Positions 6,005 through 10,987 of a stretch of 23,154 nt of DNA are shown here, in pieces. Below the pieces are notes generated by a model. It did no database searches. It saw nothing but the letters and a program-made list of their open reading frames with translations, and had not been told where the DNA came from. The position numbers and the translations under genes are program-made. The first letter of the stretch is position 1. Every line of letters begins with the position of its first letter. Source of the DNA: a virus; the IMG/VR virus record IMGVR_UViG_3300015261_000158, positions 1-23,154 of that record. The stretch is one strand, 5' to 3'.

Positions 6005-6667
6005 ATGCTCAAATTCAAAATTGATAAAGCCGCCTTTGACGCGCTATCAGACGACCAAAAAGCCATGTATCAGGAAGCCGGTGAAGGCTACCAACTGGCG
6101 ATTGAGGGCTTGCCAGACGTATCCGGCCTGGAAGCCAAAGTGAACGAGCTGCTGGTCGATAAGGAGGCCGCCGAGAAGGCAGCACGCGAAGCAGCAGAGG
6201 AAAAGGCCCGCAAAGAAGGTGATGTTGCCGCCATCGAAAACAGCTGGAAACAGAAACTGGCTGATACCGAAGCGCGCTATCAGAGCCAGATCGAGAACCT
6301 GAACGGCTCGCTTAATACGCTGCTGGTGGACAACGTGGCGCAGAGCCTCGCCACCAAATTAGCTGGCGAAGCCGCGCCGGTAATGCTGCCTCATATCAAG
6401 AGCCGCTTATCTGTGGAAATGAAGGACGGCAAGCCAGTTACCCGCGTACTCGATGCAGACGGCAAGCCATCGGCTTTAACCGTTGACGAGCTGGGCGCGG
6501 AATTCACCGGCAATAAAGCCTTTGCTGGCGTAATTATCGGATCAAAAGCAAGCGGCACCGGCGGCGCTGGTGACCCTTCGAAACCTGTTAGCGGAGCTGA
6601 CGGACTGGGCGGCAACGACCTTGTGAGCGAAGCCGCGAATATTATTAAAAATATGGGAATTGAATAA
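6005..6667 (+). CDS. Capsid scaffold protein (DUF6651-like)
   Basis: I chose ATG 6005 because GGAG at 5995-5998 is then six bases away; TTG 5999 and ATG 6002 are less well spaced. The 220-aa product has an acidic start (FKIDKAAFDALSDDQ), a long Ala/Glu/Lys-rich coiled coil at about residues 38-100, and a Gly/Ser/Pro-rich linker near the end (GSKASGTGGAGDPSKP). This composition is typical of phage scaffolds, which act as an internal template for capsid assembly and then leave. It ends with TAATG overlap into the major capsid gene. The N-terminal part and overall layout resemble DUF6651 proteins found directly before capsid genes. Role inferred from composition and position. Confidence 0.75.
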   Translation: MLKFKIDKAAFDALSDDQKAMYQEAGEGYQLAIEGLPDVSGLEAKVNELLVDKEAAEKAAREAAEEKARKEGDVAAIENSWKQKLADTEARYQSQIENLNGSLNTLLVDNVAQSLATKLAGEAAPVMLPHIKSRLSVEMKDGKPVTRVLDADGKPSALTVDELGAEFTGNKAFAGVIIGSKASGTGGAGDPSKPVSGADGLGGNDLVSEAANIIKNMGIE

Positions 6668-7629
6668 TGACTCTCCACATTTTCGAAACACAAGTTTCTA
6701 CCGCTGCCACCGAGCTGGTGGCTCAGCAAGTGCAAAAATTTAATACCGCTTCCGGCGGCGCGCTGGTGATGGGATCTGGCGATCACATCGGTGATTACAT
6801 TGAGCGCACCAGCTGGCAACTAATTGGCGGTCTGGCGCAACGCCGTAATGCCTACAAAGACGGCGATCTGACCCCGGATGAACTGGGCCAGATTCTGGAT
6901 CGCATGATCAAGATCGATGGCCGTATTGGCCCGGTTTCTATCACGCCAACCATGATGAAGCGTTTGGGTAAAAGCGTAGATGAGGCGTCTGCTGTAGTGG
7001 CTGCGCAGGCTACCGAGGCGATGCTTCAGGATTACCTTAACTCTACCTGTGGCGCGCTGCTGGCTGCCATCAAAGGCAACGCCAATATGATCACTGATCT
7101 TTCCAGCGCCGAGGGCGTGAAACCGTCGCTGGCGGGCCTGAACAAAGGCGCACGTCCGATGGGTGATGCGTTCTCGCGTCTGGTGGCATGGGTAATGGAT
7201 GGCGCGACCTATAACGACTTCATCGACGAGTCGCTGACCAACGCCAACCGCCTGTTTCAGATCGGCAATGTGAACATCATGCAGGATGGGCTGGGCCGTC
7301 GCTTCGTGATTTCCGATATTCCGGCGCTGGCAGAAGGCAACCTTCAGCACGTTCTCGGCCTGACTGCTGGCGCTGCTGCGGTACAGACCTCCCCACTCAG
7401 CATGCTGGCGCAGCCGGTGTTGGGCAAAGAGAACCTGAAAGCGCTGATGCAGGGCGAATACGACTACACCGTGGGCCTCAAGGGTTACCAGTGGGCAGAT
7501 AACGCCATTAAGTCGCCGACCGATGAACAGCTGACCACCACCAAAAACTGGAAGAAAGTACGCACCAGCGATAAAGACACCGCTGGCGTACTGGTGACCT
7601 TCGGCAAAAAGGCTGAGGCAAAAAAGTAA
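6667..7629 (+). CDS. Major capsid protein (zero-frame product, 320 aa)
   Basis: It lies after the scaffold, with a TAATG overlap, and before the connector genes. It starts MTLHIFETQVSTAATELVAQ and has Ala/Gly-rich and mixed alpha/beta segments without membrane or signal sequences. Patterns such as QLIGGLAQRRNAYKDGDLTP, RIGPVSITPTMMKRLG and GRRFVISDIPALAEG fit phage major capsid proteins, probably with the HK97 fold, though this cannot be proven from sequence by eye. The last codons read GCA AAA AAG TAA: the slippery heptamer A AAA AAG lies directly before the stop and can shift ribosomes into the BIG2 frame (see 6667-7892). The unshifted product would form the bulk of the shell. Confidence 0.85.
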   Translation: MTLHIFETQVSTAATELVAQQVQKFNTASGGALVMGSGDHIGDYIERTSWQLIGGLAQRRNAYKDGDLTPDELGQILDRMIKIDGRIGPVSITPTMMKRLGKSVDEASAVVAAQATEAMLQDYLNSTCGALLAAIKGNANMITDLSSAEGVKPSLAGLNKGARPMGDAFSRLVAWVMDGATYNDFIDESLTNANRLFQIGNVNIMQDGLGRRFVISDIPALAEGNLQHVLGLTAGAAAVQTSPLSMLAQPVLGKENLKALMQGEYDYTVGLKGYQWADNAIKSPTDEQLTTTKNWKKVRTSDKDTAGVLVTFGKKAEAKK

Positions 7630-7892
7630 CATCCGTAACTGTTAGCGGGCCGGCGAGCGTGAATGTTGGCGAAACCATCACGCTAACCGCCGCCGTTGAA
7701 CCTGCCGACGCTGAAAGCTACACCCTTGTGTGGTCTGTTGATGATGAATCATTAGCGACCATCGACCCCAAAACCGGGGAATTGGCGGGCGTGGCTGCTG
7801 GCACCGCTGGCGCTGTCTGTACCGCACAGAACAGCGACGGCAGCGAGGTAGCCAGTGAGGCGCATGCAGTTACGGTTACGGCACCAGCGTAA
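6667..7892 (+). CDS. Major capsid-BIG2 fusion made by -1 frameshift (predicted 408 aa)
   Basis: At A AAA AAG (7620-7626) a -1 slip of the two Lys tRNAs avoids the stop at 7627-7629. Reading resumes at GTA 7626, adding 88 residues up to the stop at 7890-7892. The added part starts VTSVTVSGPASVNVGETITL and is a full bacterial Ig-like (BIG2) domain with the typical SVDDESLATIDPKTGELAG core. Its first strand lies upstream of the only possible internal start (GTG 7659), which also lacks a good ribosome-binding site. This argues that it is made as a fusion. A 7-bp inverted repeat (GTTAGCG 7641-7647, CGCTAAC 7681-7687) starts 14 bases downstream and could stimulate the shift. Ig-like decorations fused to phage structural proteins by frameshift are known. 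Confidence 0.8.
7620..7626 (+). promoter_or_regulatory. -1 ribosomal frameshift heptamer A AAA AAG in the capsid gene
   Basis: The zero-frame codons are AAA AAG followed at once by TAA. The -1 frame is AAA AAA then GTA. A AAA AAG is among the most slippery -1 sites known in E. coli. An earlier AAA AAG in the same tail would shift into a stop (TGA 7614-7616), so only this site gives the fusion. Confidence 0.8.
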
Positions 7893-7896
7893 CACT

Positions 7897-7918
7897 AAGG
7901 GGCTTTGGCCCCTTTTTT
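7897..7918 (+). terminator. Intrinsic terminator after the BIG2 domain
   Basis: AAGGGGC at 7897-7903 pairs with GCCCCTT at 7908-7914 around TTTG, followed by T to 7918. It ends the capsid cassette. Confidence 0.85.
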
Positions 7919-10346: not shown

Positions 10347-10361
10347 AAATGGAGAATGCCC

Positions 10362-10673
10362 GTGACTACTAAATTTACCCTTCAACCAAACCCGACATTC
10401 AAAGCTGACGTTAAGATCCCCCGCGCTGGTGAAGAAGATGGTGTGCTTACTTTCACGTTTAAACATTATCCGCTAGACCAGCTGGCGCACCTTGAAAAAC
10501 TCGACGAAAAGACCGCCATCGATTTTGTGGCCGACATTGCCACCGCCTGGGCGCTTCCAGACGAATTTAACCGCGATAACCTGGAAACCCTGCTGAACAA
10601 CTACCCCAGCGCGCTGAAGGCGATCACGGAAACCTACTATCGCGAGCTATTGGGTAACCGCGAAAAAAACTGA
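10362..10673 (+). CDS. Tail assembly chaperone G-like (zero-frame product)
   Basis: I chose GTG 10362 because GGAG at 10351-10354 is seven bases upstream; ATG 10356 is only one base from it. The 103-aa product begins (M)TTKFTLQPNPTFKADVKIP and has FTFKHYPLDQLAHLEKLDEKTAID and a C-terminal helical part. It ends CGC GAA AAA AAC TGA. The A AAA AAC heptamer at 10664-10670 directly precedes the stop and allows a -1 shift into the T frame. G and GT coat the tape measure and recruit tube subunits during tail assembly, and are absent from the virion. The tube-G-T-tape measure order with frameshift is classic for long-tailed phages. Confidence 0.85.
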   Translation: MTTKFTLQPNPTFKADVKIPRAGEEDGVLTFTFKHYPLDQLAHLEKLDEKTAIDFVADIATAWALPDEFNRDNLETLLNNYPSALKAITETYYRELLGNREKN

Positions 10674-10987
10674 TCCGGGCTGCGTCTGCGTTCTATACGC
10701 CTGAACCTACCGCCGAAGAGCTTGCCGCTTGGGGCATGACGGCGGACGACTTCGACGACGAAGTGATCGAGGTGTGGCCTGACTGCTGGGATGCATTCTG
10801 CATCTTCCAGGCATGCGCCACACAGTGGCGGGCCGGGGCGAACGGTGCAACCGGCCTTGATTACAACGTCTTGCCGTGGCTTATGAAGTTACACGGTGTA
10901 AAGGACGAGGCAGCAGCCCTGAGAGATATCCGCGTTATGGAGCGCGTCGCACTGAATACGATTTATGAGAATCAGGGGGCGGAATGA
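10362..10987 (+). CDS. GT tail assembly chaperone made by -1 frameshift (predicted 208 aa)
   Basis: After A AAA AAC (10664-10670) the -1 frame continues with CTG at 10670 and stays open to TGA at 10985-10987, adding 105 residues (LIRAASAFYTPEPTAEELAA...). The T part holds WPDCWDAFCIFQACATQWR and GATGLDYNVLPWLMKLHGV, the signature of the DUF1799 family of T domains. The only internal ATG (10736) lacks a well-spaced ribosome-binding site and would drop the first 22 residues, so fusion by frameshift is favoured. In lambda the shift occurs only a few percent of the time, and the G to GT ratio matters. The stop overlaps the tape measure start (ATGA). Confidence 0.85.
10664..10670 (+). promoter_or_regulatory. 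-1 ribosomal frameshift heptamer A AAA AAC at the G/T junction
   Basis: Zero-frame AAA AAC is followed at once by TGA. The -1 frame reads AAA AAA CTG and opens into T. It fits the X XXY YYZ rule and the expected place. Confidence 0.85.

Follow-up and report, generated by a model that had tools for sequence, protein, structure and literature searches.

A probable -1 ribosomal frameshift that would append an Ig-like domain to some subunits of a Gp13-like phage capsid

Ig-like extensions produced by -1 frameshifting have been described for two phage capsid proteins, the gene 10 product of T3 and the major head protein of Lactobacillus phage A2, according to passages of PMC5009743 that cite Fraser 2006, Condreay 1989 and Garcia 2004. 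The same source gives A_AAA_AAG, the dnaX site, as the stronger slip site and A_AAG as a known weaker one. A related strategy is used by the SPP1 tail tube protein gp17.1, where a frameshift adds an FN3 domain to part of the copies (3:1), this domain being dispensable for infection (PMC8718954); in gp17.1 the extension results from a +1 shift (PMC4759559). Weak carbohydrate binding has been proposed for phage Ig domains but is unverified (PMC8718954). In phage K1F, Ig-like domains displayed via a frameshifted capsid product raised epithelial cell uptake (PMC13370021). Frameshift-appended capsid Ig domains are thus already known from T3 and A2, and the phage analyzed here is, judging from its sequence, very probably a further case.

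The DNA analyzed (hereafter the window) is the full 23,154 nt of a viral record, positions 1-23,154 of IMGVR_UViG_3300015261_000158. The features of the capsid locus described below lie on the plus strand. The major capsid gene (6667..7629) encodes a Gp13-like protein of 320 aa. It matches PF20036 (E=1.4e-115) with 386 bits for a curated cut-off of 26.4, covers positions 2-313 of the 313 of the profile and is also assigned to phrog_247 (major head protein). Its top fold match is with the capsid chains of 8xb6. The gene ends with the codons GCA AAA AAG TAA. The heptamer A_AAA_AAG, in phase, occupies positions 7620..7626 and abuts the stop codon (7627..7629), exactly where a preliminary description of this DNA had placed it. 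It is the single in-phase copy among the 20 window genes scanned, and codon usage gives a chance of about 1e-4 for any given codon triple. The zero-frame UAA lying immediately 3' of the slip site might act as a pausing element, an adjacency repeated in 12 of 14 Ig-bearing relatives.

Downstream of the heptamer, the -1 reading frame (7626..7892) is open from 7626 to 7889 and is closed by a TAA at 7890-7892. Re-pairing one base back gives the junction ...AEAKK-VTSVTVSGP..., from which 88 codons run to this stop. The 88 residues carry a Big_2 Ig-like domain (PF02368, E=9.1e-13; 48.4 bits, curated cut-off 22.8), residues 1-72 being aligned with profile positions 2-74. The domain is complete, as the preliminary description had proposed, and starts at profile position 2. 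Modeled alone with AlphaFold, the extension is predicted with confidence to fold as an Ig sandwich (pLDDT 97), with residues 3-7 as its first strand. Among its matches by structure and by sequence are Ig domains from T5 pb6, lambda gpV and the phi29 capsid. Since 4% of base shuffles also keep the -1 frame open, openness alone is weak evidence and the weight rests on the domain match and on purifying selection in this frame. For the extension, comparison of the window with phiES15 gives a dN/dS of 0.18 in the -1 frame, against values of about 2 for the two other frames. Values of 0.14 and 0.16 are obtained in the -1 frame for the viral contigs L002 and L071 and for the Serratia phages Scapp and Smarc4, respectively, while the other frames range from 1.3 to 3.2 across the three pairs. 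The restriction of low dN/dS to the -1 frame in three pairs implies that this frame is translated and selected in three lineages. The extension is followed by a terminator-like GGGGC..GCCCC sequence and T run (7899..7918), which lies directly 3' of the capsid stop in Ig-less relatives (alignment by eye).

The capsid family set includes 51 distinct capsids, 14 with the Ig domain and 37 without. In all 14 Ig-bearing members the domain is placed in the -1 frame, and all 14 have A_AAG, which lies at the stop except in Scapp and Smarc4, where it comes one codon earlier. The full heptamer occurs in half of them (the window, phiES15, L006, L007, L010, Scapp and Smarc4); the other seven have the tetramer A_AAG alone. 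Only three of the 37 Ig-less capsids carry A_AAG or A_AAA at this place. The association between slip site and Ig domain is strong when counted by sequence (Fisher 5e-10, uncorrected for kinship of the sequences). On the best tree, presence or absence of the domain requires six changes, of which well-supported branches force only two, both in the expected direction in most pairings. Since such branches provide only two independent contrasts, correcting for relatedness leaves the association short of formal significance. The preliminary description had asked whether heptamer and second frame are conserved together and had treated loss of the heptamer from conserved capsids as grounds for rejection. 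Taken literally, these grounds apply, since sister lineages have the tetramer A_AAG in place of the heptamer; yet a slip site is kept at the same place in every Ig-bearing capsid of the family set and Ig-less relatives almost always lack it.

Contigs L014 and L073 are mostly 96-100% identical in the flanking DNA on both sides and differ by a cassette that includes the slip site. Scapp and Smarc4, whose capsids are about 48% identical, also carry A_AAA_AAG and an Ig domain in the -1 frame. In these Serratia phages the Ig-like domain (L136:3511-3798 and L139:2438-2725) is unannotated and follows the capsid end GGA AAA AAG CCG TAA. The names of contigs L009 (without the cassette) and L013 (with it) share the IMG number 2924371731, and the two possibly correspond to two prophages of one host. 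A blastn search against E. coli genomes gave no match, and a scan of viral contigs with the Scapp capsid as query found no relative. Scans with the junction pattern returned, besides the known relatives, mostly unrelated genes together with one Enterococcus-type capsid of the same layout; the bare nucleotide motif is therefore not diagnostic. Klebsiella KLB16 and Op1_ER4 and Escherichia NHEP3 have longer capsids, which were considered as possible in-frame Ig fusions; judged by eye, their C-termini are unlike the Ig domain.

The Ig domain could instead be translated from an internal start, as a small gene in its own right that produces a stand-alone head-decoration protein. GenBank/RefSeq records annotate it in this way (phiES15 gp34 and pAEv1818 gene 46), and the -1 frame of the window does contain a GTG at 7659. 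However, the window has GTT where phiES15 has its annotated start GTG, and L071 has GTA in place of the GTG annotated in pAEv1818. The window GTG is codon 12 and the first ATG, GTG or TTG of the frame; it lies past the modeled first strand, which initiation there would lose, in agreement with what the preliminary description had said of internal starts. In Smarc4 the first 25 codons include no ATG, GTG, TTG, CTG, ATT, ATC or ATA. With annotated GTGs that are not conserved, a window GTG that comes too late and no candidate in Smarc4, a shared internal start is ruled out. A separate gene would also leave the co-occurrence of slip site and Ig domain unexplained, and we consider it improbable.

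Transcriptional rather than ribosomal slippage, acting on the run of six A that precedes the G in the window, would give the same fusion. Six A is short for efficient transcriptional slippage, and L002, L011, L013, L014 and L071 keep this layout although their run is just three A long (GCAAAG), which leads us to reject this explanation as very improbable. Ribosomal -1 slippage, by contrast, fits all relatives because A_AAG is the minimal site for re-pairing of tRNA-Lys with AAA. The possibility that the frame break in this A run of a metagenomic contig arose through sequencing error or recent mutation, the gene being in truth simply fused in frame or else in decay, is negligible, since the same relation between stop and -1 frame recurs in independent genomes (phiES15, Scapp, Smarc4, pAEv1818 and other contigs, some with three A) and purifying selection acts on the -1 frame. 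In-frame readthrough of the UAA was also discarded: the next stop is three codons further on in the window.

We therefore retain, as highly likely on the sequence data, the reading that ribosomes undergo a programmed -1 frameshift where the major capsid gene ends, which puts the Ig domain on some subunits. This was the core of the preliminary description, and it is well supported by the joint occurrence of frame, slip site and Ig domain, by the lack of conserved internal starts and by selection in the -1 frame. What the sequences show is the arrangement of the frames, the encoded domain, the selection on the -1 frame, the association with slip sites and the presence or absence of the whole cassette between close relatives. 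From these we infer that ribosomes shift frame and with what efficiency, that the fusion enters the virion and that it has a role in binding. Most ribosomes would halt at the UAA and yield the 320-aa shell subunit, with a calculated mass of 34.2 kDa. A fraction would slip one base back on A_AAA_AAG, with tRNA-Lys re-pairing with AAA, and yield a 408-aa fusion of 42.8 kDa, close to the two sizes (near 34 and 42 kDa) given beforehand. The Glu-C junction peptide of this fusion, calculated from the window sequence, is AKKVTSVTVSGPASVNVGE. Ig-bearing relatives that lack the heptamer (7 of 14) must rely on a weaker site.

The fusion would then co-assemble with the shorter form and display Big_2 on part of the head. 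That a minority of subunits display the domain, and that it binds carbohydrates or host surfaces, is plausible by analogy. Our best guess is that the displayed domain would bind cell-surface or mucus glycans weakly, as an adhesin that the phage can do without; a dispensable accessory role fits the variable presence of the Ig domain between close relatives. More tentatively, and with the odds rather against it, the capsid-Ig cassette may carry its slip site along when it moves, and individual lineages may tune the number of Ig knobs per head by a heptamer/tetramer switch beside the stop. If this is so, close relatives should differ in the density of Ig display.

A 7-bp inverted repeat (7641..7687), with arms GTTAGCG (7641-7647) and CGCTAAC (7681-7687), does begin 14 bases past the heptamer as noted in the preliminary description, but a role as hairpin stimulator is not supported: the repeat is not conserved, its phiES15 counterpart being broken (GTGAGCG and CGTTAAC), and it is absent from the minimum-free-energy fold. 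Among the relatives, z-scores of the downstream folds range from -2.8 to +1.1, that is from better to worse than shuffles, and neither a conserved downstream structure nor an upstream Shine-Dalgarno-like stimulator was established. We would give the adjacent stop codon more weight than downstream structure as context of the slip site.

A second likely -1 frameshift was observed elsewhere in the window (10356-10987). The gene at 10356-10673 ends with GAA AAA AAC TGA, which places A_AAA_AAC at 10664; beyond this gene the -1 frame continues to 10987. The two halves align in order with the profile phrog_17368, as for tail assembly genes of the lambda G/GT type.

The probable frameshift fusion has been overlooked in the inspected annotated records of this capsid group. 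The phiES15 and pAEv1818 records would split a single product into two genes, and in Scapp and Smarc4 its second part is missing from the annotation. Enterobacterial phages with Gp13-like capsids would join those thought to decorate their heads by frameshifting. Their relatives constitute natural pairs, with or without the cassette and with heptamer or tetramer, for studying the function and dose of head Ig domains. The mixed use of heptamer and tetramer inside one capsid family is the aspect most worth testing.

Among known systems, E. coli dnaX has the identical slip heptamer but is a cellular gene. Its upstream Shine-Dalgarno-like element and its downstream hairpin have no established counterpart at the window capsid gene. 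SPP1 gp17.1 resembles the window in that an extra Ig-fold domain is added by frameshifting to part of the copies, and differs in being a tail protein with an FN3 domain and a +1 shift. The capsid gene of Enterococcus phage vb_GEC_Ef_S_9 (L137:1305-2773) ends with GTA AAG TAA followed by Big_2 in the -1 frame, a layout like that of the window. However, this capsid is of a different annotated lineage, one with a prohead protease, and the annotation gives its Ig domain a gene of its own. The junction of Ef_S_9 recurs in contig L174, with a later frame break. As far as T3 and A2 are described in PMC5009743, the window case differs from them in its Gp13-like capsid, in the use of A_AAG alone by half of its Ig-bearing relatives, in that a stimulatory structure is not established and in being known from sequence. 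It would nevertheless share with them the essential arrangement, in which ribosomes shift to the -1 frame as they approach the end of the major capsid gene and so place a C-terminal Ig-like domain on some of the subunits.
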